From a virus, in IMG/VR virus record IMGVR_UViG_3300008516_000108, positions 1 through 23,483 of that record: a stretch of DNA of 23,483 nucleotides; one strand, written 5' to 3'. Both the position numbers and the translations under genes were made by a program. Under the pieces are notes generated by a model. It was not told the origin of the DNA. It ran no database searches and saw only the letters and a list, made by a program, of their open reading frames with translations. Of this stretch, positions 734-23,483 are shown one piece after another. How positions within the stretch are numbered: the stretch's first letter is position 1; every line of letters starts with the position of its first letter.

Positions 734-3313
734 ATGGCACGCAGCGTAACTTTCAATGGTATCACACGATTCACCCCAGGTGGTATCACTAAAATCAATG
801 CAGCTGGGTTGGCACAGGTTCTCCTGTCCGACAACAGCATCGTTGGCATTGTAGGTGAAGCAGAAGGCGGAGCACCAGGCTCCACCGCAGGTCTCGTTAC
901 ATTATTCGACCCAGCTAGAGCATCCGAATTGTTCAAGAGCGGCGATATTGTTGACGCCCTTGGCCTTGCTTTCCAGTCCTCGAACGACCCTGACGTACCA
1001 GGTGGCGCTTCCCGAGTACTTGTTTACAAGACTAACGAGTCTACCGCATCTTCCCTTAGCCTCCCAGCCGAGAACGCAACGGAGCTTCTAGGAACACTTG
1101 CTGCTCCTAATACCACGGATACTCTTGGTGACGTAACCTCCGTCATCGACAGCACCCTCTCCGCCACGACCTCCGACGACGAGTTCAACGGCAAGATCAT
1201 GGTGCTTCGTCCGTACACGGCAAACGCCGAGGTTCGCACGATCACTGACTACGATGCTACCACAGGTGACTTTACAGTTTCCCCAGATCTCGACACCCTT
1301 GCAGGTGCTACGGACGACTACATTGTCCTTGAGGCAGAGGTAGAGTTCGCTGACGTGGCAGACACTGGCGGAACCACTACGACTATCGTTCTCACTGAGA
1401 ACTCGGCTATGACGGTCGACGAGCACGCTGGTCGCTGGGTTTACTTCCAGGACACCGCTTCTTCTACTCCATTACTTCGTCAAATCAACGCAGCAGACCC
1501 TGATACTCCTGGTGAGGCAAATACTGTAGATACTCTTAAGTTCTCCCCAGCGCTTCCTGCTGCTTCCACGCAGTACGGCGTTGTTCAGATTCTTGCTAAC
1601 GCAATCGACCTTACCTCTAAGGACTGGGGCGAGCACACCAACGGTATCACTGTTGATGTAGCCACCGGTACCGGAGCAGGCACTAAGGTTGTGACTGTTA
1701 CCTTCGAAGGCGAAGAGGAAGTATCCTCTGACCTCGGCGGCACTGCTCAGTTCAAGGTGTTCTACGCTACGGGCGAGACAGCTACAGACACTGTAGCAGC
1801 AGCCTCGACTCCTACAACCACCTCGCTTGAAATGACCACTGCCATGACGGCCAATGAGTATGCAGGAGTGCAGGTTCTGATCAACGGTGAATACACTGTA
1901 GTAGCGTCAAACACCACTGACACCCTTACTCTGAGCCCAGCATTGTCCGCTGCTCCAGCAGCACTGGATACTGTGAGTTTCCGTGGTTCCCCAACCCTCA
2001 ATGTTGGTGGCGCTGCAGGAAACGCAACCGGCCTTACCACCTCTGGTACTCTTGACGACCTGGCGATTACCTTTACATCAGGTCAGACCCTTCGTCAGTT
2101 GCTGGACGCTATCAATGCGAACCCAGCATACTCGGCAGAGGCAGGCCAGGCAGTTAACGTAGACACCACATTGGTAGCTGACCTTGACTTTGGTCCAGAG
2201 GCTACCTTCACGATTGGTGCTGAGCTAGACCTTAATCCTACTGTAGGTCCTACCCGCAACGTAATGGCCATCGTAGATTACTTGAACGACTTCTCCACGT
2301 ATGTTAGCGCAGTGCGCTCGGCAGACACGGGAAGCACCGTTTCGGGTTGCTGCCCTCCAGCAGACATCGGTGAGCCTCTCTACCTAGCAGGTGGTTCTCG
2401 CGGTATTTCTGAGAACACTGATTTCCAGGCTGGTCTCGATGAGCTTCTAAAGGTTCGTTGTAACTCGGTTGTTCCTCTAATCGACCAGGATCTTTCTAAC
2501 GAGGGCCTAGGCTCCACGGCAACTGTCGCTTCCGTTGCTGCTCAGCTTGCTGACCACGTTGCTACCGCTCGCGGTACCGGCCAGGACAAGGCTGGCGAGC
2601 GCGGTGGCTTCCAGGGCTTCGTAGGAACCAAGGATCAGGTTATCGCTCAGGCGAACTCCCTCAACGACATGGACGTAGCTCTTGTAGCTCAGAATCCAAC
2701 TGTCCTTAACGCCGCTGGCTCCCTTGAGGAGTTCGGGCCTCGTATGCTAGCTGTTATGGCTGCTTCGATGCGCGCTGGTGTTACCGAGGTTGCAGAGCCA
2801 CTTACCCACAAGCTGGTCCGCAGCTCTGGTATGACTCAGGACGCTTCCTGGGATCCAGGCGACCTTACGGACGCAAACGAGATGATCATCAGTGGTGTTC
2901 TGTTCACAGAGACTATTGATGGTGTTGGTACCCGCTGGGTACGAGACCTCACAACTTGGGTCGCAGACGACAACCTTGCATACAGCGAGGGAAGCGTTCG
3001 TGACGCAGTTCGTTACGTAGCATACGGGCTACGCACGACTCTTGTAGAGCGTTTCACAGGGAAGAAGGCAGCTCCATCCACTATCGCTAACGTGAAGGAT
3101 GCAGCCGCAACATTCCTTGAGCTAACTCGCCAGGATGACATTATCGTGGATTCTACGGATCCAACAACCGGTTCGACCATTAAGGCGTACCATAACCTAA
3201 AGGTGACATCCTCCGGTGACACCGTTCGTATCAACGTAGGTATCTTCCCAGTCCCAGGGATTAACTTCCAGTTGACCGATATTTACCTTCAGTTGCCAAC
3301 GCAATCGTCGTAA
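734..3313 (+). CDS. Tail sheath protein, enlarged by inserted beta modules
   Basis: An 859-residue contractile tail sheath protein. Sheath subunits polymerise around the tube and shorten on infection to drive it through the envelope. The C-terminal third is typical of the family: a conserved core (residues about 555-760) followed by VRDAVRYVAYGLRTTLVERF and an end domain with PSTIANVKDAAATFLELTRQ, then a closing beta section (VRINVGIFPVPGINFQLTDI) ending near QLPT. The N-terminal part opens with VTFNGITRFTPGGITKI and a GIVGEAEGG segment, as seen in sheath proteins. Between about residues 130 and 490 there is a large insertion of beta-rich repeats (133-201, 212-287, 359-416), making it longer than T4 gp18 (659 residues). 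The insertion probably sits on the outer face of the tail. Start ATG is chosen for its AGGAG site. The identity is based on the C-terminal pattern plus the neighbouring tube gene. Confidence 0.93.
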   Translation: MARSVTFNGITRFTPGGITKINAAGLAQVLLSDNSIVGIVGEAEGGAPGSTAGLVTLFDPARASELFKSGDIVDALGLAFQSSNDPDVPGGASRVLVYKTNESTASSLSLPAENATELLGTLAAPNTTDTLGDVTSVIDSTLSATTSDDEFNGKIMVLRPYTANAEVRTITDYDATTGDFTVSPDLDTLAGATDDYIVLEAEVEFADVADTGGTTTTIVLTENSAMTVDEHAGRWVYFQDTASSTPLLRQINAADPDTPGEANTVDTLKFSPALPAASTQYGVVQILANAIDLTSKDWGEHTNGITVDVATGTGAGTKVVTVTFEGEEEVSSDLGGTAQFKVFYATGETATDTVAAASTPTTTSLEMTTAMTANEYAGVQVLINGEYTVVASNTTDTLTLSPALSAAPAALDTVSFRGSPTLNVGGAAGNATGLTTSGTLDDLAITFTSGQTLRQLLDAINANPAYSAEAGQAVNVDTTLVADLDFGPEATFTIGAELDLNPTVGPTRNVMAIVDYLNDFSTYVSAVRSADTGSTVSGCCPPADIGEPLYLAGGSRGISENTDFQAGLDELLKVRCNSVVPLIDQDLSNEGLGSTATVASVAAQLADHVATARGTGQDKAGERGGFQGFVGTKDQVIAQANSLNDMDVALVAQNPTVLNAAGSLEEFGPRMLAVMAASMRAGVTEVAEPLTHKLVRSSGMTQDASWDPGDLTDANEMIISGVLFTETIDGVGTRWVRDLTTWVADDNLAYSEGSVRDAVRYVAYGLRTTLVERFTGKKAAPSTIANVKDAAATFLELTRQDDIIVDSTDPTTGSTIKAYHNLKVTSSGDTVRINVGIFPVPGINFQLTDIYLQLPTQSS
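1130..1981 (+). repeat. Three copies of a beta module inside the sheath gene
   Basis: Protein-level repeats at 1130-1336 (residues 133-201), 1367-1594 (212-287) and 1808-1981 (359-416). Shared pattern: a short Thr/Ser-rich strand, then D/NE..G, a variable strand, then R or V.TITDYD or VVASNTTD, then a strong TLTLSPAL or FTVSPDL strand, then A..DDY or A.LDT and a closing V.L strand. Copies differ in sequence and are not DNA repeats. The pattern is the same as in the 303-residue protein downstream. I recognise this kind of segment as widespread in phage structural proteins but cannot give it a family name. Confidence 0.65.
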
Positions 3314-3338
3314 AGCAGCTTTTTGATTGAAAGAGACT

Positions 3339-3344
3339 AAGGAG
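3339..3344 (+). promoter_or_regulatory. Ribosome binding site of the 303-residue protein
   Basis: AAGGAG lies seven bases before ATG 3352, a near-perfect Shine-Dalgarno site in the 38-base gap after the sheath gene. Confidence 0.6.
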
Positions 3345-3351
3345 TTTTAAC

Positions 3352-4263
3352 ATGGCTATCACGATTGACCCAGGAGTTGTTACCTATCTAACAGCAATAA
3401 AGGCAGCGCTGACAACTGGTACTAATACAGGAGACCCAGGTCTCTATGATGGTAAAGTCCACGCCGCTGCGCAGAATTACCTTCGCGCGCAGGATATGGC
3501 AACCGTTCTGGAGCTTCTTCAAGAACAACTGAGCGCCACAACCGCCCTAGATGCAGTTAGCGGCAGCACCACTACAATTGTAGATGCTGCTTCTACGTTT
3601 GTCGCAGGTGAGCAGGTTGGTAATGAAGTAACTATCACTTCTGCCACCGAGTCTATCGTAGGCGAGACAGCTACAGTTGTATCTAACGATACAACCACGC
3701 TGACCGTTTCCCCTGCGTTCTCGGCAACCATTACCGCAGCGGATGAATACACCATCGAGGCCAAGTTCCTTGATACCGAGATTGCTACCCTTAGAAAGGG
3801 TGGCGGTATCGCTGACTCTACTGTGGACCCATACGGTGCTCACAGAGATGCTATCAACGGCCTAGTTAGGTTCGCAGAGCAGCTCGGTTCATCGTTCGCA
3901 GAGCGTAATATGGGCGGAACTGGCCTAGTAGCCCTAGATGGCTCTGATGACACAGTAGTACTTCTCTCTGGTGGTCCATACCGAATCGACCAGTTCAAGG
4001 GCTACCGCGTTGCTGTTAATACAGCAGGAGAAGGAATTGTTGTAAGCAGCAATGAGAACTCTGTCACCCTTCGTGGTCCAATGGCAGCTGCAGCAGCCGC
4101 TGACGATGCTGTTACCATCACCGTCCCACTAAATGATTTTGGCGGCACTTCTGCTCCTAAGATCCGAACCCACCCAGGCGCACAGCCAGGTGAGAATGCC
4201 GCTTTGGCTGACCTTATCGATCAGTTGCAGGCTCTGGTTGCAGCCGCTACGGTTCCATCCTAA
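3352..4263 (+). CDS. Unrecognised virion protein between sheath and tube, with two beta modules
   Basis: A 303-residue protein with a good ribosome site. Residues 1-65 are mainly helical (VVTYLTAIKAALTTG ... YLRAQDMATVLELLQEQL). Residues 70-137 are one beta module (SGSTTTIVDA ... TTTLTVSPAFSA ... ADEYTI) and 198-258 a second (DTVVLLSGGPYRIDQFKGYR ... ENSVTLRGPMAA ... DDAVTITV). A helical linker with NGLVRFAEQLGSSFAERN lies between them, and the end is again helical (LADLIDQLQALVAA). There is no signal peptide or membrane segment. Its place between sheath and tube, where most phages have nothing, and its codon use close to that of the sheath suggest an abundant tail or capsid accessory protein. 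It could decorate the tail or the head. I do not assign a named function. It is followed by a terminator-like hairpin. Confidence 0.8.
   Translation: MAITIDPGVVTYLTAIKAALTTGTNTGDPGLYDGKVHAAAQNYLRAQDMATVLELLQEQLSATTALDAVSGSTTTIVDAASTFVAGEQVGNEVTITSATESIVGETATVVSNDTTTLTVSPAFSATITAADEYTIEAKFLDTEIATLRKGGGIADSTVDPYGAHRDAINGLVRFAEQLGSSFAERNMGGTGLVALDGSDDTVVLLSGGPYRIDQFKGYRVAVNTAGEGIVVSSNENSVTLRGPMAAAAAADDAVTITVPLNDFGGTSAPKIRTHPGAQPGENAALADLIDQLQALVAAATVPS
3559..4125 (+). repeat. Two copies of the shared beta module in the 303-residue protein
   Basis: Copy one spans 3559-3762 and copy two 3943-4125. The first is closest to the sheath copies: a GSTTTIVD strand, GE.VGNEVTI, TATVVSNDTTTLTVSPAF, then ADEYTI. 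The second keeps the order of strands with FKGYRVAV, GIVVSSNENSVTLRGP and DDAVTI. They are related at protein level only. Confidence 0.65.
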
Positions 4264-4278
4264 TCTAAAGTTTGGCAG

Positions 4279-4330
4279 CCTGGGGGCCGATCTGTCGTCC
4301 CCTCCGGAGAGGCCCTTGGGTTTGCTTTTT
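4279..4330 (+). terminator. Rho-independent terminator-like hairpin after the sheath/303-residue pair
   Basis: CCTGGGGGCC (4279-4288) pairs with GGCCCTTGGG (4311-4320): ten pairs, three of them G-T or T-G wobbles, around a 22-base loop that contains a small CCTC/GAGG stem (4301-4312). The hairpin is followed directly by TTTGCTTTTT (4321-4330). This is the layout of an intrinsic terminator, though the loop is large and the T run is broken by GC. It would reduce read-through from sheath into the tube gene, so the tube gene either depends on leaky termination or on its own promoter. Confidence 0.55.
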
Positions 4331-4377
4331 ATTAGATTTAGTCCGCAATTAGTGTTATAGTATATTAGGAGTTTAAA

Positions 4378-4800: not shown

Positions 4801-4810
4801 ATCAGAAAAC

Positions 4811-4864: not shown

Positions 4865-4879
4865 AAGGGGAATAGTATA

Positions 4880-5359
4880 ATGGTAGATTCATCTCGAACG
4901 CATACTTTCACGGTTGACTTCCTTTCTGAAGCCAGTGAACGCAGGTATGCAGGCACATTTACAACTAAGAAGCTGAGCATCAGAGACATGACCCTAGTGG
5001 GTGTCCGCAAGGTGCAGCTCTGTGGTGGCATGTCTTTTAATCCGGCCCAGCCAGGACAGGGTATTGACTTCGCTACGTTCCAGATCAACGGCATGATTGC
5101 CCATCTGGAGGTTGCCCTTACTGCTTCGCCTAAGTGGTGGGACCTAGACGAGATCACAGACATAGAGGTACTGTCTAAGGTTTTCGGGGAGGTAATCGCT
5201 TTCGAAAACAACTTTCCAGGACGAGGGACAGACGCTTCCGAAGGAGGACGCAGTAGAAGCGGCTCAGATAGTGGCGAGGCGCAGGAAAACGAGCCCGTCC
5301 GTTCTGGAGACGCTCCGCAGGTGGTGGTCGGAGAAGTACAAGCTTCCCTCGAACCATGA
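4880..5359 (+). CDS. Tail assembly chaperone, short product (G-like)
   Basis: A 159-residue protein in the position of the first tail assembly chaperone, between tube and tape measure. Residues 1-115 look folded (HTFTVDFLSEASERRYAGTF, ISIRDM-like segment KKLSIRDMTLVGVRKVQLCG, FATFQINGMIAHLEVALTAS, WWDLDEITDIEVLSKVFGEV). The last 45 residues, from about FPGRGTDASEGG on, are low in complexity and look disordered. In this family the short product coats the tape measure during tail assembly and does not stay in the virion. A long frame in another phase overlaps its end (5196-5738), the classic sign of programmed frameshifting. Ribosome site AAGGGGA precedes ATG by eight or nine bases. Confidence 0.75.
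   Translation: MVDSSRTHTFTVDFLSEASERRYAGTFTTKKLSIRDMTLVGVRKVQLCGGMSFNPAQPGQGIDFATFQINGMIAHLEVALTASPKWWDLDEITDIEVLSKVFGEVIAFENNFPGRGTDASEGGRSRSGSDSGEAQENEPVRSGDAPQVVVGEVQASLEP
5196..5270 (+). other. Likely programmed frameshift zone, +1 or -2
   Basis: The short chaperone frame starts at 4880. The downstream frame is offset by +1 (equally -2), not the usual -1. That downstream frame has a stop at 5193-5195 and then no start codon until GTG 5271, although 5235-5270 already reads like real protein (LPKEDAVEAAQIV). The shift should therefore lie after 5195 and, if this segment is made, before about 5240. Two sites suit +1 slippage: TTT-C at 5213-5216 (Phe tRNA re-pairing UUU to UUC) and GGG-A at 5225-5228 (Gly tRNA re-pairing GGG to GGA), the latter after a CGA codon. 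The GGG site would give NFPGRG joined to QTLPKEDAVEAA. I see no good -2 site. Confidence 0.55.
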
Positions 5360-5738
5360 ACTGTTCCAGAATAGTACTCTATTTGAGTTACTAGCAGATT
5401 TCTGGGAAGATTACTATTACAAGAATCCTCTTGAGGCCTTTCGCAACGAGAAGGGCGAAGTACAGTTTTCCAATACTGGAGACGAGCTTATCGATAAGTG
5501 GGAGAAGGAACTTGCTGAAGGCAAGAGTCCAGACTACTTAGAAGGCTTTAACGCAGAAGATCTTGAGAAGCTTGAGAATCTTAGGACACGGGGCAGGTCC
5601 AAACACGGACATATTGTGCGTGGTGGAACCCTGAAGAATGCCGTAGATTCAGCCGCACGAGACGCGCAGGCAATAGCTGCTCCAGAGAAAAGACCTCCTA
5701 TATACAAGAGGTTTAGTGACCACGACTCTGATGAATGA
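5271..5738 (+). CDS. Tail assembly chaperone extension (T-like), probably made by frameshift
   Basis: The coordinates start at the only conventional start codon (GTG 5271), but the coding sequence probably enters by frameshift upstream. The region encodes ARRRKTSPSVLETLRRWW, SEKYKLPSNHELFQNSTLFE, LLADFWEDYYYKNPLEAFRN, a charged middle with DELIDKWEKELAEGKSPD, and a basic end. As in other phages, the fused G-T product would link the chaperone coat to tail tube subunits. GTG has no Shine-Dalgarno at a normal distance: the nearest, AAGGAGG (5241-5247), lies 23 bases upstream, so independent initiation is unlikely. It ends with TGA at 5736-5738, which overlaps a possible promoter for the tape measure gene. 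The chaperone role is inferred from position and frame overlap. Confidence 0.7.
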   Translation: MARRRKTSPSVLETLRRWWSEKYKLPSNHELFQNSTLFELLADFWEDYYYKNPLEAFRNEKGEVQFSNTGDELIDKWEKELAEGKSPDYLEGFNAEDLEKLENLRTRGRSKHGHIVRGGTLKNAVDSAARDAQAIAAPEKRPPIYKRFSDHDSDE

Positions 5739-5744: not shown

Positions 5745-5760
5745 ATTATAGTGGGGTAAA

Positions 5761-7800: not shown

Positions 7801-10800
7801 ATGTCTGCCATAATACATCAACCAGATGCAGTTGACTTCCTAGGTTCTTTAGGACCTGATGGAGTTCGTCGTTATAAGACACGCTGTAAGATTTTACTTG
7901 ACAGCCATTCGCACCCTGAAACACTCGTCATGGTTGACGATGTTGTGTCTGTTCAAACCAGCAAGACCATCAAGGGAGCTGGGCAGGCGACGTTCATTCT
8001 TACCCCTTCCGAGAACTACCTCAATATTATCTTCCCTAATGATTACGTAAATATCTATTTCGATATTGGCGACGGTTCGGGGTGGACCCGTACTTTCTTT
8101 GGGCTAGTAGATAGGATTGAAGAAGAATACGTTGTAGCAAAAGAAGGACAGCCTAGAACTACGTATAAGGTTGTTTGTTCAGACTTTCATAAGATCTTTG
8201 AGCGAACCTCGGTTTATTTCAACCCGCACTTGGCTAACCGTGACGAGTTCCAAAACTACGACTTTGCAAAGGCCAACGTTGCTGGCCTTTCCTTGATGAC
8301 TAAAGGTATTTTGGCAGGAGGCACTCCTCCCGACATCATCCTAAATGTTATCACTCAGATGATTGGGTTTGGTACGCAGTTCCAGCTTCCGGCTTCCTAC
8401 TTCCCTGGTAGCGTCCAAGATAGGCTACGAAAGAAGCGAGCTGCAGATGTGGTGGGCCGCCTTCCCGGCGAGCTGGCAGATAAGATAGGCTCTGATGGCC
8501 AAGGATACCTTCGGTACAAAGAGGACCTTCAAACGCAAATTACGGCGACTGTTGATAAGTTTGGAAAGCTAGGCAGTATTGAAGAACAGAAGAAACAAGT
8601 TGCAGAAGAGCTTGGAATTACGCTGAGAGGAGTCAAAGACCAGATTGCTACTCCAGACCAGATTATTCAGCAGGCAACAGACCAGAAGCTAAGAGAGAAC
8701 CTGCAGTCAGTGGAGGCTTTGCGGGGACTTGCAGGTACGGCGTACTCCGATGCTCAACGCAACGTATCCACTCTCGAAAGCACCGTTGCTGAGGACTCTT
8801 ACCTAATTGACATCCTAGATATGTATACCTTCATAGAGAAGAGAGCTATAGATGGTTACTTATTCGGCCAGCCAGTTTGGGAGAAGCAGGGGTCTCTACT
8901 CTCTATCCTAAGGGCCTTCTCGAATGAGCCTATCAACGAGCTGTTCTTCGACCTGCGTCCACTTAGTTCTAACACCTCCGAAGACGACAATGCTTTTCGC
9001 CCCGTAGAGGGAGCGTATGCTGTCATCGAGGACGATAAGAAGGCCAACCTGAGTGAGACGACGAATCAGGGAATCACCATGATTCCTGCCGTCATCATGC
9101 GCGAATATCCTTTCTCAATGATTGAGGGCCTAGATCTCTCTGATGTTGAGTTGTTGGTCAAGTCTAACGATAAGAGAATCCGGGTGGGTCAAGTACCTTT
9201 CGGCGCTATCTTTAGCAGCAGGCCAAACCAGCCTGGACGACATGTAGTCGATATCCCAAACATCAATGTAGACGATCGAGCAACAGCTATGGCTGACGCC
9301 CAAGACCAAGCTACTGAACCAACGGCTCTTGGGTACAAGCATTTAGACGTGGCTGTGGTTTCCGAGGGAGAGATTGTGAAATCTACCCTTGGCCGCTCTG
9401 ACGCGGATCACTTCAACCTTTTCGAGTTTTACAGTGATGCGGTTCTGGGTTCTGACCAGCGGTTCTACATGAAGGACCTTTTACCTATCATCACCCCAAT
9501 TCACATTCTTCGTCACGGGCTTAGGGTACGTACAGTTACCACTCGCGCAGCACGTTTCAGCTTGGGCGCTGTGGCCCACTTGAAGGGATTTAGAAGTGAT
9601 GAACCCGAAAAGGTAGACCCCAGCAATACTGCGGACGGCACTCCAGCAGAGGTTGACCCCAGGCAGTTGGGCCTTCCTGTGGACCCTGCTGATGTACCGG
9701 CAGAAACTCTTGTCTTTTGGAACGGCCAGCAGTCTGATTGGGGATATAGGCCAAAGCCTGGGCCTCCTCCAAGGGACCAGACTAAGGGACCACAAGCATG
9801 GGTATTTCACCAGGGCGTTGATATCTCGAAGAATAGGAATAGCACACTTTCCACTCCCATCCCTATTAGAGCTATTGCAGACGGGGAGGTGACACACGCC
9901 GTTCCCGATAGAGGAAAGGCTGGCTACGGAAACTACGTAGTTATCCGACATAACTTTGCGGGAATTAAAGGGTATAGGTCCTCTACTTACGCTCACCTCT
10001 CCGCCATTCACCCTTCAGTAATGCTTGCCGGGAAGGTCAAGCTCACCAGTACTCCACAGCAGATGGGCAACATGTGCTCCGTAGATGCGGAGGGTGTAAG
10101 CAGGGGTAGGATGAAGTCCAAACAGGTAAAGAAGGGCCAGATTATTGGGTGGATGGGGAACACCGGCTGCGGCTACAAGCCTGGGGTGGGGTTTCACCTT
10201 CACTTTGAGATCACTAGGCACTTCGCCCCTAAGAAGGATACTGTTACAAAGAGAATTACTTTCTCGGGAGACCCCGACTCGGTTCCACAAGATGGGTCTA
10301 CTCCACCCCCGCCTGCTGGCTTCGACTCATATGGGACTAACTCTGATGCAATGCGTGCCGCAGACCAAAACAGTTGCGACCCTGTACGCTTCTATTCCTC
10401 GTTTGGCAAGGACTTAGTTGGGCTCATCAACGCTAGTGCAGGCTCAGGGGAAGAGGGCGCTAACGAGCCCGACGACAAAGATCCGGGAGACGGTTCCCCG
10501 GAGGAGCAACAGAACCCTTCTAAGGCGCAAGTTGCGGCAGAAACCAGTACGGATCTTACGACGCCGACAGTACCCGCTAGGGTTAGAAACTCAGTAGATA
10601 GTGGGTCTACTCGTAGGCAGATTATTAGGTGGGCGCTACTCCAGGACCACTGGTACCAGCACAACCTTGAGTTTCTATCCGGTAGAATTGATATGCGAGG
10701 AGCCCCAGAGATTCGCGTAGGCTATCGCCTGGATATCCAAGAGCGCAACATGAGTTTCTATGTTGAAGGAGTAAACCATAGTTGGTCCTACCCTAACAGC

Positions 10801-11274
10801 ATGAAGACCAATCTTCAGGTGTCCAGAGGGCAACCTAACAACCCTTGGCCTCTTTATGTGTTCCCTTACTTCGAGAGTCTTGGAGCCACAGACTCCCAGC
10901 GAAGAAATGCACGAAGCCGCCTAGCAACTTACTTCCTAACTCCAGATCCTATCGCTATCCGCAGGTCTTTGTTCTTGCGTGGGGACACTGTAAAGGAAGC
11001 CGGTCAGTACCGCAATGATGCCTTTATTGGCGCTCAAGACGGAAACAATATGACAGACAACCTAGAGGCCATTGAATATGTTGCAGAGGCAAGGATTTCC
11101 GAGAAGTACAACGAGATGGTTGTTCCAGCCGGTAGGTACGGTGACCTAGAAGACTCTGGTCTACAGGATAACGAGGCCGCAAGAGACAATGCTGGCACCT
11201 CTAGCATTGCCGGTACAGATGCCACCGGTCTGCCTAAGCTTGGCAGTATGAGGAAGAGGAAGCGTAGGAGATAA
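7801..11274 (+). CDS. Baseplate hub protein with an internal M23 metallopeptidase
   Basis: A 1157-residue protein. Residues 1-150 fit a gp27/XkdQ-like hub start (TLVMVDDVVSVQTSKTIKGA, GQATFILTPSENYLNIIFPN, NDYVNIYFDIGDGSGWTRTF), with FFGLVDRIEEEY as the usual hub strand. Residues about 215-330 form a helical, Gln/Glu-rich insertion. Residues about 637-806 are an M23 (LytM-type) peptidase: HQGVD (H670, D674), YAHLS (H732) and HLHFEI (H799, H801) are the expected zinc ligands and active site. After a disordered Pro/Asp/Ser stretch, the hub fold resumes with IRVGYRLDIQERNMSFYVEG and SWSYPNSMKTNLQVSRGQ. The peptidase would cut peptidoglycan cross-links as the tail enters. No Shine-Dalgarno is seen before ATG, which lies six bases after the tape measure stop, so translation is probably coupled. 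Confidence 0.88.
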   Translation: MSAIIHQPDAVDFLGSLGPDGVRRYKTRCKILLDSHSHPETLVMVDDVVSVQTSKTIKGAGQATFILTPSENYLNIIFPNDYVNIYFDIGDGSGWTRTFFGLVDRIEEEYVVAKEGQPRTTYKVVCSDFHKIFERTSVYFNPHLANRDEFQNYDFAKANVAGLSLMTKGILAGGTPPDIILNVITQMIGFGTQFQLPASYFPGSVQDRLRKKRAADVVGRLPGELADKIGSDGQGYLRYKEDLQTQITATVDKFGKLGSIEEQKKQVAEELGITLRGVKDQIATPDQIIQQATDQKLRENLQSVEALRGLAGTAYSDAQRNVSTLESTVAEDSYLIDILDMYTFIEKRAIDGYLFGQPVWEKQGSLLSILRAFSNEPINELFFDLRPLSSNTSEDDNAFRPVEGAYAVIEDDKKANLSETTNQGITMIPAVIMREYPFSMIEGLDLSDVELLVKSNDKRIRVGQVPFGAIFSSRPNQPGRHVVDIPNINVDDRATAMADAQDQATEPTALGYKHLDVAVVSEGEIVKSTLGRSDADHFNLFEFYSDAVLGSDQRFYMKDLLPIITPIHILRHGLRVRTVTTRAARFSLGAVAHLKGFRSDEPEKVDPSNTADGTPAEVDPRQLGLPVDPADVPAETLVFWNGQQSDWGYRPKPGPPPRDQTKGPQAWVFHQGVDISKNRNSTLSTPIPIRAIADGEVTHAVPDRGKAGYGNYVVIRHNFAGIKGYRSSTYAHLSAIHPSVMLAGKVKLTSTPQQMGNMCSVDAEGVSRGRMKSKQVKKGQIIGWMGNTGCGYKPGVGFHLHFEITRHFAPKKDTVTKRITFSGDPDSVPQDGSTPPPPAGFDSYGTNSDAMRAADQNSCDPVRFYSSFGKDLVGLINASAGSGEEGANEPDDKDPGDGSPEEQQNPSKAQVAAETSTDLTTPTVPARVRNSVDSGSTRRQIIRWALLQDHWYQHNLEFLSGRIDMRGAPEIRVGYRLDIQERNMSFYVEGVNHSWSYPNSMKTNLQVSRGQPNNPWPLYVFPYFESLGATDSQRRNARSRLATYFLTPDPIAIRRSLFLRGDTVKEAGQYRNDAFIGAQDGNNMTDNLEAIEYVAEARISEKYNEMVVPAGRYGDLEDSGLQDNEAARDNAGTSSIAGTDATGLPKLGSMRKRKRRR

Positions 11275-15066: not shown

Positions 15067-16907
15067 TGGCTTTTACTCCTAGATCATTCAATACTATTCT
15101 CACTGATATGGTTGCCTATGTGCAGTCTCGAACAACCCTTACTGACTTTACAGTAGGTTCTTCAATCAGAACTGTTCTGGAAGCAGCTGCCTTGGAGGAT
15201 GATGAGCAGTATTATCAGATGGTGCAGCTCCTTGATATCTTTTCGTACACCACAGCCTCTGGAGAAAACCTAGATAGACGACTTGCTGACTTCAATATCG
15301 TTCGCACAGATGCCCAGACCGCCTTTGGCCTTGTAAGCTTCACTAATGGTAACATTAAGACAGATCTTGCCTCCTCTGATGCTGTATCCGGGAGCACCTC
15401 TGTTGCGGTGTTTGACTCTTCACCATTCCCAGTTACAGGTTTTCCTTACACGATTCGTATCGCAGAAACTACAACAAGGGTTCAAGATGCCTCCGTGCTG
15501 GCGTTAGATACAGCCACCAATACCTTTACGTTGGCCGCTGGCCTTCTTTCCGACTCTGAGGTTGGTGATCGCGTATCTTTGGTTTCTGGTGCTTCTTCTC
15601 AGAGCATACCTATTAGTACTAATATTCAGAGCCCTGCCACAAACACAGAAGATTCTCAGATTTATAGAACTACAGAGAATGCTACTATTCCTGCAGGCAA
15701 CTACTACTCTAACGAAGTAAATATACTCGCTACATCGGCAGGACCTAATGGCAACGCTGGTTCCGGTCGAGTGACCCAATTTGTTGGAGCTGCTCCATTT
15801 ACCGGGGCGGGTGTTACTAACGCCTCCGCTATCTCGGGCGGTTCGTCTAGAGAATCAGACGAAGAACTTAGAGCTAGAGCAGTCGATAAGCTCCAGTCTC
15901 TTTCCCGAGGAACTGTGCTTTCTCTTAAGGCCGAGTCTGTTGGCGTAGCCGATCCAGCAACTGGTCAGCGTGTTATCTCCTCAAATGTTCTTGAGGACTT
16001 TGCAGGAGACCCCGATGAGGTAATTGTCTACGTAGATGACGGTACTGGTCTCACGCCTGATGTTGTTTCCTTTGCGCAAAGCACTATCGTCACAGGAGGA
16101 GGAGGCACTACTGCTAATGCGTTTGAGCTTACTGATGCCACGAACTTTCCTTCTTCAGGGTTTATCTTTATAGAAACTTCTCCCAACACAATTATGGTAG
16201 AATATGTTTCTAAGAGTGGAAACTTTTTAACTTTGGCCACCGCATCTGCTGTAGTCCCTACCGGCGACGAGTTAGTGCGTAGAATTAATGTTATTTCGGA
16301 AGGAACAGAGGATGGACAGAGGCGTTTTTCTCTTAGAAATCCTCCGGTTGTTAGGTCCACTGACTTGATTTGGATTAAAGAACCCGCCGCTACTACTTGG
16401 ACTCAGTTAACTCCTAATACGGAATATGTCCTCAATAAAGGAACTGGCGAGTTTGTCGTTATTGATGTAGCTGGGTTGGGCTTAAACACGGAAGTTATAG
16501 CCTCTTACAGCTACTATACAAATCTCATTGCCGAAGTTCAAAAGGTTTTGGAGGGATTTGAGGACGATAGCGTTAACTACCCCGGCGTAAAGGCTGCGGG
16601 TGTGTTTCTTACGGTAGAAGCTCCTTCTTCCAAGAGAATCACCGTTACAATGTCTATTGCTGCTGAAACTACTTTTGTTGAGACTGACTTGGCCCCATTA
16701 GTACAAACCGCTGTCGAAGACTACATCAGGGGGCTCAAGATTGGTAATGACGTAATTCGTTCTAGAATTGTAGACGCAGCACATGATGTGCAGGGCGTTA
16801 GAAGCGTCTCTGTTTCTGAGCCTTTTTCGGATGTTATTGTGCTAGAAAATGAGCTTCCTACTCCATTTGATTCGAATGACGATTCACTGGTAACAGTGCT
16901 TTCTTAA
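15066..16907 (+). CDS. Baseplate J-like wedge protein with inserted beta modules
   Basis: A 613-residue protein whose ATG shares one base with the previous TAA, preceded by AGGA at 15055-15058. It shows the baseplate J (P2 gpJ / T4 gp6) pattern: N-terminal helices and AALEDDEQYYQMVQLLDIFS with GENLDRRLADF; SRESDEELRARAVDKLQSLS near residue 260-280; and the C-terminal section with VTMSIAAETTFVETDLAPLV, VEDYIRGLKIGNDVIRSRIV and HDVQGVRSVSV. It joins baseplate wedges and triggers sheath contraction. It is about twice the length of P2 gpJ because of inserted segments at residues 108-175 and 351-411, both copies of the shared beta module, plus a region with FSLRNPPVV and a Y.Y strand around 430-490. 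Assignment is firm from the DEELRAR motif and ordering. Confidence 0.88.
   Translation: MAFTPRSFNTILTDMVAYVQSRTTLTDFTVGSSIRTVLEAAALEDDEQYYQMVQLLDIFSYTTASGENLDRRLADFNIVRTDAQTAFGLVSFTNGNIKTDLASSDAVSGSTSVAVFDSSPFPVTGFPYTIRIAETTTRVQDASVLALDTATNTFTLAAGLLSDSEVGDRVSLVSGASSQSIPISTNIQSPATNTEDSQIYRTTENATIPAGNYYSNEVNILATSAGPNGNAGSGRVTQFVGAAPFTGAGVTNASAISGGSSRESDEELRARAVDKLQSLSRGTVLSLKAESVGVADPATGQRVISSNVLEDFAGDPDEVIVYVDDGTGLTPDVVSFAQSTIVTGGGGTTANAFELTDATNFPSSGFIFIETSPNTIMVEYVSKSGNFLTLATASAVVPTGDELVRRINVISEGTEDGQRRFSLRNPPVVRSTDLIWIKEPAATTWTQLTPNTEYVLNKGTGEFVVIDVAGLGLNTEVIASYSYYTNLIAEVQKVLEGFEDDSVNYPGVKAAGVFLTVEAPSSKRITVTMSIAAETTFVETDLAPLVQTAVEDYIRGLKIGNDVIRSRIVDAAHDVQGVRSVSVSEPFSDVIVLENELPTPFDSNDDSLVTVLS
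15387..16298 (+). repeat. Two copies of the shared beta module in baseplate J
   Basis: Copy one at 15387-15590 (SGSTSVAVFD, FPVTGFPYTIRIAE, ATNTFTLAAGL, VGDRVSLVSG) and copy two at 16116-16298 (FELTDATNFPSSGFIFIETS, IMVEYVSKSGNFLTLATA, PTGDELVRRI). The second has the FP..G. / E.V.Y / LTL / G..V order seen many times in the next gene. Confidence 0.6.
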
Positions 16908-16908: not shown

Positions 16909-19900
16909 ATGACTACAGAGCGCATACAAAGTGATATCAAAGAGGTAAGGGACCAGCTGTCCCTTGACTTCGCTGATAGCGAATATCTAAACGTTATTAG
17001 CCGTAACCTTGGAATGGACCGCCCTATTCTTGGGTATACGGACGATTCGTGGCGTGCGGTTGTCAAGATTCTAGCTCTTGAATATAAGCAGATTGCCAAT
17101 AAGTTCAGGGATGTTCTTGAGATCATTTTTGGGCCTCGTATCACGGAGGTAGCTACTCTGGTAGAGGATGTGATTGTTGGGGATGCTGAGTGTGTCCTGA
17201 ACGACACGAGCAATCTACCGCAGCTAGGCACACTTGTATTCGACGAGGGTTTGGCCTCGGAAGAGACCCTTGCTTACTGCTATATTGACCGGGTAACAAA
17301 TACTGTCTTCCTAGAGACGAACTTCGGGGCGGCGCATAGTGCTCGTAGTTTTGACGCAGAGGAGCCCCTCGTCCTGGTAGACGGTACTAAGGTTGTGTGC
17401 CGAAAGACCAATAACTTCCCAATCACCAACTATCCATACCCTGTTGTACTTGGCAGGGGCACGGCTAATGAGGAAGTAGTTCAAGTAGTAGACAACAACC
17501 TGGTTACAGGAACACTTACCTTAAGTAGTGCTCCTTTGAATAGCCACGATACTATTAGTGTTGGCGATGTCTTTGACCAATTAAACCAGGAGTATTTTGC
17601 AACTTCTAGCTTCCTTCAGCTAGAAGACTCCACTCAGTTTCCTTCTGAGGGTTATATCAAGTTGAGAGCTTCCGGGGACGCTACAGATACAGCTTTTGTT
17701 CTAACTGCTAACACCCCCCTTGCAGCGGACGACTTCGTTCTGCTGGCAGCTGATACGTTTGTAGCGGCTACTAAGGCCGTCCCTGACATGGTGTTCGCTA
17801 ACGTGGCTGGCAGCAGCATAGACATCCAATCTGCAGGAGGTAACTTGCCCTCCTTTGTAGTTGGGGACCGCTTTGAGGTACATAACGCAAATAATCCAGC
17901 GAATAACGCCCTGTATGAGGTTACGGTAGTAACTACAGAAAACGAAGACTATACAGTAACCTCATTGGACGGTACCCCTGCCGATGATGCTTCCCCTACC
18001 ACTAATGAGGAAGTTTCCTACGACGGTGAGGTAGCTGGATACGAAGTAGTATTTACGGGCAACATCACGTCTGCCCTTGCTGGTGTAACCCGTAGGATTG
18101 TTTCTGGTACTGATTCTTATCTCTCGTTCGACGATGACTTCACCGCCCCCGCAGCTGCTCCAGCTACCGGCGACGAGTTTACCCTCTACCCTATTGTTCA
18201 GTATGTTAGTCTAGACTACGACTCCCACACACTCACATTGCGGGCTCCAATCCTGGAGACTAACCTTACTATTCCCCTTAACTCTACAGTAGAGTTGCTG
18301 GTGGTTGAGGAAACAGCTGCCCTTTCCCCAGTAAAGTTCGCGGGTACAGGGTGGGATATTATCCAGACTACCCCACGTTTGGTGGAACTTCTTATCCCAG
18401 AAGATATTCAAGACCCAAATGATCTTCGTAGTTCTTCTCATGTTCACGATTTCACCATCCCTACTACAAGCACCACAAACTCGGTGCAGGTAGACCCCGG
18501 AGAAACTGTTGTAGAGGCAGCGTCCTTCGCTGCTTTCCCAGACGCAGGAACCCTTGAGTTCGACCCAGGAGGAGGCAGCGCTGAGCGTATTGCTTACAAC
18601 AAATACATCTCTGAGGTGAACGTATACGCCCCCGAAGGATCTGGTACACTTATTCTTGCTAACACCAGGGCCTTTCCTTCTACTGGCTCTATAGTTGTCG
18701 ATGTAGGTCTTGATACCGAAGAAACTCTAGTCTATACCGCCAATAACATAACTTCTGGAGAACTTACCCTTTCTGGCACTACATCGTTTGAGCATAAAAT
18801 AGGGGTAATTGTAAAGAACTATACAGAGTTAGCCCTGCAGTCTGGGGCAATAAACACTCACGCTATTGGAACTACCGTTGAGTTTTACCAGCCTAAGTAC
18901 GGTTCTACTAGTATTCCTATAGGGGACTTCAACCAGCAGCAGCATACTTGGCCTGGTCCCTATCTTTACTCCTTGGATGAAAGGGCTGCTACGGGTACAG
19001 TAGCCCTCACTAATGCCGCCTCCCCTGTTCCTGGTGCCTCTAATTTAGCTATAGGACAGTCGTTGGGCAGGTTTGCTCTTGAAGTAGAAGATGGTCTAGC
19101 TTTATTGGAGGGTGCAGCTGTTCCGTTCGATCTTTTGGTGGGACCGGGAACTTCTAAAGAGGAAACTATTCAGGTTGATTCTATTGCCATAAAGGGGAGA
19201 GCTTCTACTACTATAGCCTCAGACCCAGCTTTGGGAGCTACAATTCTTCAAGCAACTTCTCTTTCTCCTCACCCAGCTGGAGAGGGCGGAACCTTCCCTC
19301 CTGAAGGTGGCTACAGAATTGTCATAAACGAGGCTGGAGGAGTTGGCACTCTTGAAGTTGCTTATGTCACTAGCACCGTTACAGTTGTTGACGCTACTGC
19401 AGCTATTGGTGCTGGTGCGGATGGAACTGTGAACATCACAGCTGTTGGGAGCCTGGCTGGTGTAGCAGGCAACGCCGCTACTGTAGAGGTCTTTGAGCCA
19501 GCAGGTACGTCGGCCTTGTCTGCCTCTGCCGTGGGTGGTGTGCTGACGGTGAACCTTGATGTTGTTGCCGGTGTCGCTGGTGCAGGCCCCAACACCGCTA
19601 CTCTTATCGCAGCTGCTATATCTCTCCTTCCTAATTTCAGCGCCGTCGCTTCAGGCACAGGAGCTGATTCTATCATTGACCCAGAAGCTCTTACCTCCTT
19701 TACAGGGGGCATTGATGGGTTCGCTCTAGAAGAGCCCCTTACCATTGACCACCCTAATGGGGCTACTGTGGATCTTATGTCGGACGTTGTGGAGACTAAC
19801 GTTGTCTTGACTAAGAGCCATAATGGTTTCACTTCGTTTACCAATAGGTCCACGGCGTCTGGGGGCGTAAATGCTTATGCCTCTCTTCAAGACACTACTT

Positions 19901-20502
19901 CCGCTAATGAGATAGCTCAGCCCCTGCTTGATAGTATTACTTTGGTTTCTGGCACCGGCCTGGATACAGACGGAGGAAACGTAATATTCAACTTCGGACT
20001 AGGTTTTATCCCAGTGGAAGCCACCATAGACTCTGGAGTTACCGCAGGAGATACACTCATTTCTGTGGACACCTCCGACAATTTCCCCGCGCCAACTTCA
20101 CGATTTGTTGCTATAATAGGGAGAGGGACTCCAAACGAAGAGAAAGTGCTGGTTACCGCGAATAACACCGCCTTGGACCAGTTCACTCTAGGTGATGGCA
20201 CCCACGGAGTTCAATACGACCATGCTATCGGAGAGACAGTTATCTTCGAGCCAGGAGCACAAGAAGCCATAGAATACTCAGAGGTTGATGGAGCTATCCT
20301 TCGCTTTGATCCTGAGATTGTGCTACAATATACTCATTATCCTGTAGAGACTGTGGTAGATTCTTCCGCTACAAGCGACCCTTCCGATAATGGGTTTGAT
20401 TTTCCTTTCCGCATGCCAATCGATATTCTAGTGAGACTACAATACTTGTTAGACATCGTTAGGGCTGCAGGGGTACAAGTGGAACTGATAACACAGAGGT
20501 AA
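16909..20502 (+). CDS. Large modular baseplate protein (tail protein I/gp7-like N-terminus)
   Basis: A 1197-residue protein starting one base after the gpJ stop, without a Shine-Dalgarno, so translation is probably coupled. Residues 1-75 are helical with SEYLNVISRNLGMDRPILGY and DDSWRAVVKILALEYKQIAN, similar to the start of tail protein I or other wedge proteins that bind gpJ. Most of the rest is a string of beta modules (residues 93-159, 160-226, 233 on, 523-573, 577-641, 1038-1116 and weaker ones between). Residues about 822-938 form a different Gly/Ala-rich segment (GAGADGTVNITAVGSLAGVA, GNAATVEVFEP, ATLIAAAISLLPNFSAVASG). The C-terminus returns to a helical end (MPIDILVRLQYLLDIVRAAG). It probably connects wedge and fibre and spans the outer baseplate. 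The exact homologue is uncertain. Confidence 0.78.
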   Translation: MTTERIQSDIKEVRDQLSLDFADSEYLNVISRNLGMDRPILGYTDDSWRAVVKILALEYKQIANKFRDVLEIIFGPRITEVATLVEDVIVGDAECVLNDTSNLPQLGTLVFDEGLASEETLAYCYIDRVTNTVFLETNFGAAHSARSFDAEEPLVLVDGTKVVCRKTNNFPITNYPYPVVLGRGTANEEVVQVVDNNLVTGTLTLSSAPLNSHDTISVGDVFDQLNQEYFATSSFLQLEDSTQFPSEGYIKLRASGDATDTAFVLTANTPLAADDFVLLAADTFVAATKAVPDMVFANVAGSSIDIQSAGGNLPSFVVGDRFEVHNANNPANNALYEVTVVTTENEDYTVTSLDGTPADDASPTTNEEVSYDGEVAGYEVVFTGNITSALAGVTRRIVSGTDSYLSFDDDFTAPAAAPATGDEFTLYPIVQYVSLDYDSHTLTLRAPILETNLTIPLNSTVELLVVEETAALSPVKFAGTGWDIIQTTPRLVELLIPEDIQDPNDLRSSSHVHDFTIPTTSTTNSVQVDPGETVVEAASFAAFPDAGTLEFDPGGGSAERIAYNKYISEVNVYAPEGSGTLILANTRAFPSTGSIVVDVGLDTEETLVYTANNITSGELTLSGTTSFEHKIGVIVKNYTELALQSGAINTHAIGTTVEFYQPKYGSTSIPIGDFNQQQHTWPGPYLYSLDERAATGTVALTNAASPVPGASNLAIGQSLGRFALEVEDGLALLEGAAVPFDLLVGPGTSKEETIQVDSIAIKGRASTTIASDPALGATILQATSLSPHPAGEGGTFPPEGGYRIVINEAGGVGTLEVAYVTSTVTVVDATAAIGAGADGTVNITAVGSLAGVAGNAATVEVFEPAGTSALSASAVGGVLTVNLDVVAGVAGAGPNTATLIAAAISLLPNFSAVASGTGADSIIDPEALTSFTGGIDGFALEEPLTIDHPNGATVDLMSDVVETNVVLTKSHNGFTSFTNRSTASGGVNAYASLQDTTSANEIAQPLLDSITLVSGTGLDTDGGNVIFNFGLGFIPVEATIDSGVTAGDTLISVDTSDNFPAPTSRFVAIIGRGTPNEEKVLVTANNTALDQFTLGDGTHGVQYDHAIGETVIFEPGAQEAIEYSEVDGAILRFDPEIVLQYTHYPVETVVDSSATSDPSDNGFDFPFRMPIDILVRLQYLLDIVRAAGVQVELITQR
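17185..20256 (+). repeat. Array of shared beta modules in the 1197-residue baseplate protein
   Basis: Clearest copies: 17185-17385, 17386-17586 (directly adjacent), a diverged one from 17605, 18475-18627, 18637-18831 (nearly adjacent) and 20020-20256. Common order: V.L..T.NFP..G.., then a strand with GT..EE.V.Y.., then NN...G.LTLS, then H..G..V. Examples are FPITNYPYPVVLGRGTANEE, FPSTGSIVVDVGLDTEETLV and FPAPTSRFVAIIGRGTPNEE. Similarity is at protein level, with no exact long DNA repeats. Confidence 0.7.
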
Positions 20503-20509
20503 TACTTAC

Positions 20510-23483
20510 ATGCCAAAGAAACTAAATATAAGCTCCAATCAGAGAGTTGACCTTGATGATTTCACAAGGGCGGCCTCGGATTATACACAAGAAGGAGACA
20601 ACTTTTCTAGACAGAAGGTACTACTTTCTGGTAACTCTGCAGTCGCTAGAGGCTTTAGGATCGAAATCTCTGACCAGGTAGCGTCCCCTGGAGAGTTCAC
20701 CATCTACAATGGTGTGGGCGTAGACAAGGCTGGAAACATCCTGAACAACGAGCAGCAGGTTGCAGATGCGCGTACTCTTACGCTCGCTGGTGCTGGTCTT
20801 AGTTTTTACGTCGAGATTGAGTACACAGAATCTGAGTCAGATGTTGACTCTCGTGCTTTTTGGGATCCTACTTTTTCGGGCAATAACCCCCCCGGAAAAG
20901 AGTTCACCCTTAACGTTGCTACCCGTCTTACCCCGGATTGGCAGGTTGTGCAGCCTGTAGGCACATCTGCCTTTACCGTTACTGGATCTGTAAATAGTAT
21001 TCGTATTCCTATCGCTATTTTAACGACTAATGGGTCTAACGAGATCACTGGCTTTACAGCGGTAAACGCCGCTACGGTCCTCGCAAGAGACGCAGGAACC
21101 TTGGACACTGAGATCGAGGTTATAGACAGCTTGGTATTTCCGACCACCGGCAATGCTACAGTTGGAGGAACAGCTGTAGCTATTACAGGAAATGATCGTA
21201 CTAACAATATCATTTCGCTTTCAGGTGCTCTTGGCGTAGCTAAAGTTGCGGGGGATATAGTCGTAGAGACTGGCCCAGCCGCTGCTTTTGTGCCACACAG
21301 CGCAGATAGCAGGACGATGCTGTTCTCTGGGGACGAAGAGAGAGGTACCGCCCTAGTTGCAGACCCAGAGGATGGGGCTGCTAGAAGCGATATTCAGCTT
21401 GCTAGCCTAAAAGACCATGTAGACTTCCTATCCGCACAGCTCAGAGAGCTAAAATATGGTAACTCTCGCCCAGGTAATACCTCCACTCCCTCTATTACGT
21501 TCAACACTTCTGCGAGATACTACGAGTACGCAGGTAGCATTGCCGGTGCTAGAGGTTGGTCCTTTACTGTCGGTGATGCGGTTACTTCTTACGGGGATTT
21601 TAACTCGACAGCCGACGACCTAGGGACGCAGTTGCAGGCCGCACATGATTTGCTAGACGTAACCAACGGTGGCTCTATTTTTGTCAAGTCAGGCACTTAC
21701 GTCTGGGATTCCGTACTCAACATTGATCGTCCTTTGACTTTGGTGTTTCAGACAGGCGTTGTCTTAGGAGCAGGAACTTACGCAAGTAATCCTATTTCTA
21801 TTGATGCCGCCGTAAAGGTTGTTGTAGAAGGTATGCCAGCTGCCCCCGCCGCTACTTATCCCTTCCCTGTTATCTGTTCCGACTATAATGGTTTTGAGTT
21901 TAGAGCACATGATAGCTTTCTTCAGGTTGACCTTAGCGGAGCTACTACTGCCGTTACTAATAATGTTGTTCACCTAGAAGACTGTATCTTGACTTGCGAG
22001 ACTACTGCCGGTGCTTTTGTAACTGTCGGTTCTGCCGATGAGAGCTTTAAGTCTATAACGCTGAGTAACTGTGGTCTTAGATACGATGACGCGGTTCCTG
22101 GGACTACCCAAGCTATTATGGCTCTACAACATTCCGGTAGTAGTCTCATCGAAGACTGTATCTTTGACCTTGCCTATAGCACGGGGTCAGCTAGCCAATT
22201 CCTAACGGTATTAACTGGAGTTAACATTGACGAAGAAGAAAGGCTGACTGTTCTTCGTTCTTCTTTCATTGATACAAATACAGGCACGGCAAAGAATCCT
22301 ATTGACTTTGCCGTCACAGCGGGCTGTGTTTTATTCGATGAGTGTTTCTTTGAGGCTGACTGGGCGGCAACAACCGCTTCAGGTGCTGAAAAGTCTTTTA
22401 TTCACAGCCTGGCAACTGAGGTTGTTGTTACTAACTCCCTTTTTAAGGGGATGGATGTTCCCGACGCGACTACAGCAGTGTCTTGGCCTCCAGGCAGTGT
22501 AGATGGTTACGGTTGTTATATCCACTGTGGAGAGCCAATCGGTGAAGCCTGCGCGCTTAGGGTTCAAGATTGCAAATTCTACGGACCAGGCTCCAACAAC
22601 GAAGCTAGTGTGGGAGTCTACTTTACAGGAAATACCCAATCGGTTGTAGAACGGTGTTATTTTAGTGCGTTTGGTATTGGGATCGCTGCCGACTCCGCCG
22701 AGGGCACCCGGATCACAAACAACCACTTTAGAACGTTTGTTACTGATCCAACCATGACTGTAAGCTGCGATCTACTTGTGATGTCCTTCGGCACGCGCGC
22801 TGCCGTCATTAGTGATAACTACTTTGAACACTACTCTGGCTTCGACGGGGTTTTGGGCGATAGCTATAACTGGTATGGCGTTTGGCTAAACACCGATGAT
22901 GGCTACTATGCCGGCTATATAGTTTCTAATAACAACTTTGAATTCAGAAATTCAGGAGGCAACGTAACCGCTCTTAAGCTGCCCGAGTATTTCGATATTT
23001 TCACGGGATCCGCGTCACCTGAAGTGGTCTCGGGCAATACCTTCTCCTCTAACTATAATAGAGGCACCGCATCCAGTATTACCGAAAGTACTATTACAGC
23101 TATTTGGTCAGACCTATCTGGGACAGGGAATTTTGGTTATGCTAGAAATCTTACAATCTCCGATAACAGTATTTATATAGACCATAACAGCGCCGCCCGT
23201 GGAGATATATATGGAATTTATCTATGGTGGGGCAGCGAAAACCTACCTGGATATCAGGGCGGTACGACTATTACTGGCAACTCTATTTCGGTGTATCATG
23301 GAGGTTACGGAGATGCTTTTGGTATTTTCTACCAGGGAGTGAAGGGTACGATCTCACATAACACCATCGCCGTCGCAGGAGGGAGTGGAACTCCGGGCAC
23401 CAATAGCTACGCTGCCTATTTGAGTGGAGGTTGGCTAAACTTCGACAATAACGTGATAGGCGTCCGAACTGACTGTGATGACG
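20510..23483 (+). CDS. Beta-helix tail fibre/tail spike, C-terminus beyond the window
   Basis: An open frame from ATG 20510 to the last base, at least 991 residues, preceded by AGAGG at 20495-20499. The N-terminal 300 residues are probably the baseplate-binding part (LNISSNQRVDLDDFTRAASD, FTIYNGVGVDKAGN) and include one shared beta module at residues 201-253 (VIDSLVFPTTGNATVGG, NIISLSGALGVAKVAGDIVV). A helical stretch (SDIQLASLKDHVDFLSAQLR) around residues 298-320 could form a trimeric coil. From about residue 370 it reads like a pectate-lyase-type beta helix: LQAAHDLLDVTNGGSIFVKS, then many rungs with an Asn at the turn (ISDNYFEHY, VSNNNFEFR, ISDNSIYI, ITGNSISV, ISHNTIAV). Such proteins bind or cut surface polysaccharide. 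The catalytic residues cannot be placed by eye. Confidence 0.85.
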   Translation, partial: MPKKLNISSNQRVDLDDFTRAASDYTQEGDNFSRQKVLLSGNSAVARGFRIEISDQVASPGEFTIYNGVGVDKAGNILNNEQQVADARTLTLAGAGLSFYVEIEYTESESDVDSRAFWDPTFSGNNPPGKEFTLNVATRLTPDWQVVQPVGTSAFTVTGSVNSIRIPIAILTTNGSNEITGFTAVNAATVLARDAGTLDTEIEVIDSLVFPTTGNATVGGTAVAITGNDRTNNIISLSGALGVAKVAGDIVVETGPAAAFVPHSADSRTMLFSGDEERGTALVADPEDGAARSDIQLASLKDHVDFLSAQLRELKYGNSRPGNTSTPSITFNTSARYYEYAGSIAGARGWSFTVGDAVTSYGDFNSTADDLGTQLQAAHDLLDVTNGGSIFVKSGTYVWDSVLNIDRPLTLVFQTGVVLGAGTYASNPISIDAAVKVVVEGMPAAPAATYPFPVICSDYNGFEFRAHDSFLQVDLSGATTAVTNNVVHLEDCILTCETTAGAFVTVGSADESFKSITLSNCGLRYDDAVPGTTQAIMALQHSGSSLIEDCIFDLAYSTGSASQFLTVLTGVNIDEEERLTVLRSSFIDTNTGTAKNPIDFAVTAGCVLFDECFFEADWAATTASGAEKSFIHSLATEVVVTNSLFKGMDVPDATTAVSWPPGSVDGYGCYIHCGEPIGEACALRVQDCKFYGPGSNNEASVGVYFTGNTQSVVERCYFSAFGIGIAADSAEGTRITNNHFRTFVTDPTMTVSCDLLVMSFGTRAAVISDNYFEHYSGFDGVLGDSYNWYGVWLNTDDGYYAGYIVSNNNFEFRNSGGNVTALKLPEYFDIFTGSASPEVVSGNTFSSNYNRGTASSITESTITAIWSDLSGTGNFGYARNLTISDNSIYIDHNSAARGDIYGIYLWWGSENLPGYQGGTTITGNSISVYHGGYGDAFGIFYQGVKGTISHNTIAVAGGSGTPGTNSYAAYLSGGWLNFDNNVIGVRTDCDD
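21110..21268 (+). repeat. One shared beta module in the fibre N-terminal part
   Basis: Residues 201-253 keep the order: VIDSLVFPTTGN strand, GGTAVAITG, NNIISLSGALG, then VAGDIVV. It is compact compared with the copies in the preceding gene and lies between the N-terminal attachment part and the helical stretch. Confidence 0.5.

Follow-up and report, generated by a model that had tools for sequence, protein, structure and literature searches.

About 18 inserted copies of a small beta module are present in five tail proteins of an uncultured virus fragment with contractile-phage tail genes: three in the sheath, two in a 303-residue protein (p303), two in baseplate J, ten in a 1197-residue baseplate protein (p1197; nine copies of a beta and one of an alpha family, defined below) and one in the fibre. 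The fragment, 23,483 bases long and analysed whole, is referred to here as the window, and its modules span from nt 1130, the start of S1, to nt 21274, the end of F1 (Table 1). They are compact beta domains of ~60-80 residues, they sit in loops of otherwise continuous host tail proteins, and in p1197 several of them interrupt one another. Relatives gain, lose and swap modules at the same sites, and hence the phage tail offers here a clear case of domain shuffling. Our joint reading, to which we assign a probability of about 0.7, is that the modules are insertion barrels which nest, which spread long ago with later refilling and exchange at some sites, and which may serve as exposed accessory domains.

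The window encodes a sheath, p303, tube, tape measure, a tail protein bearing an M23 peptidase domain, p657, baseplate J, p1197 and a fibre. The sheath was identified from its match to PHROG tail sheath (1e-34) and the fold matches of its model to sheaths such as that of phage 812, and baseplate J from its match to Pfam Baseplate_J (1.7e-16). Relatives were gathered by scans with p1197, J, sheath and tube, and the full records behind the matches were included. In the 1157-aa tail protein (7801-11274) the M23 peptidase domain is internal (Pfam 3.6e-14); the versions in L003-L007 are shorter, and their matches end before the M23 region. Just before the tape measure (window 4880-5738), the ORFs p159 (4880-5359) and p155 (5271-5738) share 89 nt, read in different frames, an arrangement also kept in relatives. 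The pair resembles a gpG/gpGT-type frameshift pair, as a candidate only, no slippery site having been identified.

Table 1. Module copies and other inserted domains in the tail proteins of the window.
Feature	Protein, residues (aa)	Position (nt)	Strand	Support
S1, alpha	sheath, 133-201	1130..1336	+	alpha HMM iE 3.6e-19 (S1 in training set); hhalign S2 87%, K2 83%
S2, alpha	sheath, 213-288	1370..1597	+	alpha HMM iE 1.8e-16; hhalign 96-97% with S3, A1, A2, K3i
S3, alpha	sheath, 357-417	1802..1984	+	alpha HMM iE 2.5e-21; beta HMM 3.6e-4
A1, alpha	p303, 68-138	3553..3765	+	alpha HMM 4.2e-22; beta HMM 1.1e-5; hhalign K3i 99%
A2, alpha	p303, 194-259	3931..4128	+	alpha HMM 3e-21
J1, beta	J, 104-175	15375..15590	+	beta HMM 3.1e-24
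J2, beta	J, 345-408	16098..16289	+	beta HMM 4.7e-15
K1, beta	p1197, 85-157	17161..17379	+	beta HMM 5.2e-20
K2, beta	p1197, 157-222	17377..17574	+	beta HMM 8.7e-23
K3 N-terminal part, interrupted beta	p1197, 229-254	17593..17670	+	excised K3 hhalign: J2 97%, K4 96%
X, extra inserted domain within K3	p1197, 255-351	17671..17961	+	
K3i, alpha within K3	p1197, 352-428	17962..18192	+	hhalign A1 99%, S2 96%, S3 95%; alpha HMM 6.3e-7
K3 C-terminal part	p1197, 428-470	18190..18318	+	as K3 N-terminal part
K4 N-terminal part, interrupted beta	p1197, 526-569	18484..18615	+	excised K4 beta HMM 24.9 bits, above all 400 controls
K5, beta within K4 D-E hairpin	p1197, 574-637	18628..18819	+	beta HMM 5.9e-20
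K4 C-terminal part	p1197, 638-662	18820..18894	+	
K6 N-terminal part, interrupted beta	p1197, 708-764	19030..19200	+	hhalign K2 98%, J1 98%
K7 N-terminal part, beta within K6	p1197, 764-824	19198..19380	+	VIA 9n71_A
K8, third mobile domain, within K7	p1197, 828-934	19390..19710	+	
K7 C-terminal part	p1197, 934-957	19708..19779	+	VIA and homologue comparison
K6 C-terminal part, tentative	p1197, 958-980	19780..19848	+	alignment only
K10 N-terminal part, interrupted beta	p1197, 1000-1034	19906..20010	+	excised K10 6.0 bits, control maximum 2.3
K9, beta within K10 C-D loop	p1197, 1035-1116	20011..20256	+	beta HMM 8.9e-22
K10 C-terminal part	p1197, 1116-1155	20254..20373	+	HMM and homologue comparison
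F1, beta	tail fibre, 192-255	21083..21274	+	beta HMM 1e-14; alpha HMM 0.0016

An initial seed alignment built from 12 copies of the window had a weak leave-one-protein-out signal, and per-copy profiles were used instead: copies were excised together with their orthologues, and hhalign was run between all of them. Copies from different proteins matched with probabilities of 90-99% inside each of two families, against a maximum of 13.4% in 1116 control comparisons with 62 segments from other proteins and core regions. The alpha family ("LTLSPA"; S2, S3, A1, A2 and K3i, mutually mostly 90-99%) joins the sheath, p303 and, through one insert, p1197; the beta family ("FPxxG..E.V.Y..H..G..V"; J1, J2, K1-K7, K9, K10 and F1, mostly 90-99% for contiguous copies and lower for some interrupted pairs) joins J, p1197 and the fibre. 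By BLAST, identity is 45-49% between K3i and the A1 copies of relatives, and 42-45% between A1 and their S2 copies. When profile HMMs of both families were run against the 1252 unique ORFs of the relatives, matches at E<1e-3 were confined to the families of sheath, p303, J, p1197 and fibre, apart from three additional ORFs, of which two have weak matches to tail proteins; none at this threshold fell in other families, hub, tape measure and tube among them, and reversed sequences gave nothing below 0.19.

An earlier note had reported a beta module recurring in five virion proteins, and had made profile similarity between copies of different proteins its test. The copies lie where it placed them, its counts were exact or low, it had missed that several p1197 copies are interrupted by others, HMM specificity and the reversed-sequence control exclude chance, and the similarity is found within each family. 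Its description of one module with one motif order holds as to recurrence but not as to a single family: by hhalign the motifs that it named are partitioned, FP..G and E.V.Y belonging to J, p1197 and the fibre, and LTLSPA to the sheath and p303.

Modules were also noted in two other places. At L108:3547-6401, about 40 kb away from the sheath region in G015, two adjacent ORFs of ~475 aa each have an alpha module and weak tail-protein matches. Myxococcus phage Mx1 (L114), which is cultured and a possible laboratory system, has a very long J-like protein (ORF 17722-23754) with a beta module (iE 9e-8).

That the modules are insertions into unrelated folds, as had also been proposed, is strongly supported by their presence or absence at fixed sites, since homologues lacking an insert align through these sites. 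The S1 site is empty in a group of shorter sheaths (e.g. L053, L039, L049), and J homologues of 470 aa (L012, L016) are without a module at both the J1 and J2 sites. Homologous p1197 sites are empty or hold alpha, beta or K8. Thus the K3 site is empty in five phages (L003, L004, L005, L007, L065) and contains alpha in seven, its insert measuring 173 aa in the window and 89 in L057; the K4 site holds beta in five (window, L082, L083, L004, L005), an alpha module in L080 (2.5e-9) and a 195-aa insert in L007, and is empty in L058, L003 and L065; and K10 is uninterrupted in L065, where K9 is absent. By eye, the 195-residue insert of L007 comprises a K8-like stretch and a beta module.

In p1197, K3, K4, K7 and K10 are split by other modules, and K6 less surely so. 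With the insert removed, the flanks of the interrupted copies match the family by hhalign, and in an HMM test of the excised copies the controls scoring as high numbered 0/400 for K4 and for K10, 3/400 for K3, 7/400 for K7 and 59/400 for K6. Given that last figure, K6 is tentative, and as its C-terminal part lacks a significant HMM score we dropped K6 as a fully bipartite barrel. In the AlphaFold model, strands of K4 flank K5 on both sides and strands of K10 likewise flank K9; for K3, a VIA alignment covers 220..466, with 72 residues aligned. The loops of the modules would themselves be insertion sites, with K5 in K4, K9 in K10, K3i in K3, K8 in K7 and K7 probably in K6, which would account for the nesting and for the build-up of the long p1197.

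There are other mobile pieces in p1197. Domains about 60% identical to K8 (107-108 aa) occur in relatives, in tail-region ORFs of 313 aa and 610/712 aa that lie upstream of the sheath, and a more distant form lies near the N-terminus of p303 homologues of 408-532 aa; the window p303 is without K8. At the K7 site it occurs in the window only, with none of the homologues having that region carrying it there. A relationship of K8 to the sheath domain that S3 interrupts was considered and found unsupported (probability 0.7%). X shares 52% identity over 75 aa with a stretch of an 829-aa ORF that lies elsewhere in the relative G015. We tentatively suggest, at somewhat less than even odds, that the barrel is a self-nesting platform whose C-D and D-E loops are preferred docking sites for recombination that inserts, removes or swaps domains of three kinds or more (alpha, beta and K8). 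If so, tails would grow and re-surface by insertion into insertions, like a protein-level mobile element.

The beta copies are predicted to be small barrels. A small closed antiparallel barrel of ~75 residues, OB-like or RIFT-like, is seen in the predicted models of K7 and K9, both beta copies, for which the top VIA matches listed are mostly small barrels. For K7, 76 residues of model 761..958, a span including the 107-residue K8, align to residues 103-178 of 9n71_A, the tail tube chain of phage Mystique (Z 11.6, rmsd 1.9). K9 matches 8jov_1 at Z 9.4 (model 1034..1144, reaching into K10), 9in6_M at Z 8.0 (model 1036..1116) and residues 164..241 of the R4C hub chain 8gtc_P at Z 7.6 (model 1034..1114), and lambda gpJ (8k35_A, 490..562) is matched at Z 7.2, a Z of 7-8 being one that by itself may reflect a common arrangement. 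Overall confidence in the models is modest (mean pLDDT 63.6 and 59.7), with module blocks mostly at about 60-90. Among the matches listed for the sheath model, VIA gave sheath proteins only, and is therefore uninformative on the fold of S1-S3; strands of S3 are predicted at 364-367, 380-383, 386-393, 397-400 and 413-417, in a block of pLDDT about 79-87. The module profiles yielded no convincing hit in PDB, Pfam or PHROG, nor did profiles A3 and A4 against PDB chains (one weak VP4 match at 0.47), and tblastn with part of p1197 or with individual copies found nothing in named phages. At E up to 1, none of 41 module members matched Big_2, I-set or FN3 in Pfam.

A copy placed in a surface loop would leave the host fold intact, be it that of sheath, p303, J, p1197 or fibre, so that insertion could proceed without breaking the host protein. 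The likeliest role of the modules would be that of exposed accessory domains by which the tail is lengthened and re-surfaced, weak adhesion being possible. Carbohydrate binding, by weak lectins for host or environmental glycans whose copy number would give avidity, is in our judgement a rather unlikely role. Its attraction lies in the location of the modules in sheath, baseplate and fibre, their fast divergence and exchange (see below) and the most informative of the fold matches, that to an R4C hub domain named oligosaccharide-binding, but binding by that domain is itself a proposal (PMC10276861). Moreover, the Trp content of the modules is 0.1%, and no conserved set of exposed aromatic residues or shared binding motif was noticed in the family alignments, which favours accessory re-surfacing barrels over a strong lectin role. 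Neutral insertion, with barrels tolerated as harmless and having no selected function, would accommodate both the presence or absence of a module at the same site among working relatives and the lack of conserved functional residues seen; it is nonetheless unlikely, given that several modules keep their site in many relatives (J homologues of 600 aa retain J1 and J2, and p1197 homologues K1 and K2).

The two families are probably of one origin. Most alpha-beta hhalign pairs lie within the control range, as would be expected if alpha and beta were two unrelated inserted beta domains alike just in strand order and a few motifs, an explanation made improbable by several observations. The beta HMM, whose training set has no alpha copies, matches three alpha copies in register, A1 (1e-5), S3 (4e-4) and S1 (5e-4), and the alpha HMM in turn picks out F1 (0.0016), all at values below any obtained with reversed sequences. 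S1 acts as a bridge in hhalign, matching S2 (87%), K2 (83%) and K5 (80%); one and the same K4 site accepts either type; and in the models the predicted short strands of S3 and K9 have the same order and spacing. Shared origin, to which this weak in-register signal points, is thus likely though not proven, and the alpha-beta HMM link, at E 1e-5 to 1e-3, lends the notion of one module weak support.

For 93 of 97 alpha and 72 of 83 beta copies, the nearest neighbour by identity is the copy at the same site in another phage, and same-site copies in other phages are up to 92% identical to those of the window, which share just 22-38% with one another. Most copies are therefore old and have stayed at their sites by descent; six K5-site occupants and three K3i copies depart from this, their nearest neighbours being copies at other sites. 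A recent within-genome duplication, suggested by the many copies in one short record and by the earlier proposal of spread by duplication within one genome, was rejected on these same-site neighbours and low paralogue identities and is very improbable.

Sheath modules are 54% identical where the sheath cores are 83-85% identical, and divergence clearly outpaces that of the core in the sheath modules, in J2 and in the majority of p1197 copies; no such clear excess is seen in p303, or in J1 compared with the J core. Between L030 and the window the sheath cores are 95-96% identical and S1-S3 47-59%, and fourfold sites match at 46% in S1 and S2 together versus 79% in the cores (p 4e-5). L038 has the reverse pattern, with a fourfold match of 79% in S2 versus 53% in the cores (p 0.002; S1 and S2 jointly, p 0.27). 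These tests comprise few sites, in regions picked after viewing the alignment. On such sequence comparisons, the sheath module cassettes are best read as exchanged between phages, and the data overall point to a spread that is mostly old, with continuing exchange: copies would mostly be inherited in place, some sites refilled and the sheath cassette exchanged by recombination.

The outcome is a site-by-site record of insertion in a contractile tail, in which the same loop is empty or variously filled and the host protein is always kept. With it one can ask which loops tolerate insertions, how these nest and what drives the exchange of virion surface domains outside the receptor-binding tip. 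The module boundaries can also guide annotation where long baseplate and sheath proteins lack a Pfam match.

Phage structural proteins are already known to carry promiscuous domains. Ig-like domains turn up in many unrelated proteins of this kind and pass from phage to phage (PMC10276861, PMC9230969), and our modules (cf. Big_2, I-set, FN3) share this recurrence and movement; they differ in having no Ig-family match, and the top fold matches listed for the beta copies K7 and K9 are mostly barrels. Domain mosaicism, in which unrelated phage proteins share homologous domains, with shuffling still under way in receptor-binding proteins and others of the tail (PMC10684548), describes the present case as well, as homologous domains appear in proteins of unrelated function and in different combinations. 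What goes beyond that study is the involvement of the sheath and of nested self-insertion, 'tail sheath' and 'nested' both being absent from its text as searched; a limited literature search found no paper on nested domains in phage tails. Sheaths are known to acquire additional beta-rich domains, which lie between the conserved N- and C-terminal parts of the core, on the side turned from the tube, and for which a part in adhesion or stability has been proposed (PMC9230969). Those described here are likewise added to a sheath and would also face outward, but they are common to p303 and a baseplate protein. Closest in form are the inserted barrels of siphophage and GTA tails, namely the R4C hub domain 162-243, which is called oligosaccharide-binding, is proposed to aid adhesion and splits an iron-binding domain in two (PMC10276861), the extra inserted beta domain in HDIV of lambda gpJ (483-569; PMC10721106) and the OB-like domains of T5 and RcGTA Dit. 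These are small all-beta inserts of tail proteins with a structural alignment to K7 or K9, and no sequence link between them and our modules was found. There the insert is single, whereas here about 18 copies occupy five proteins and several are nested. New in this tail are small barrels repeatedly nested in each other, different domain types replacing each other at one site, and modules common to sheath, p303 and baseplate.
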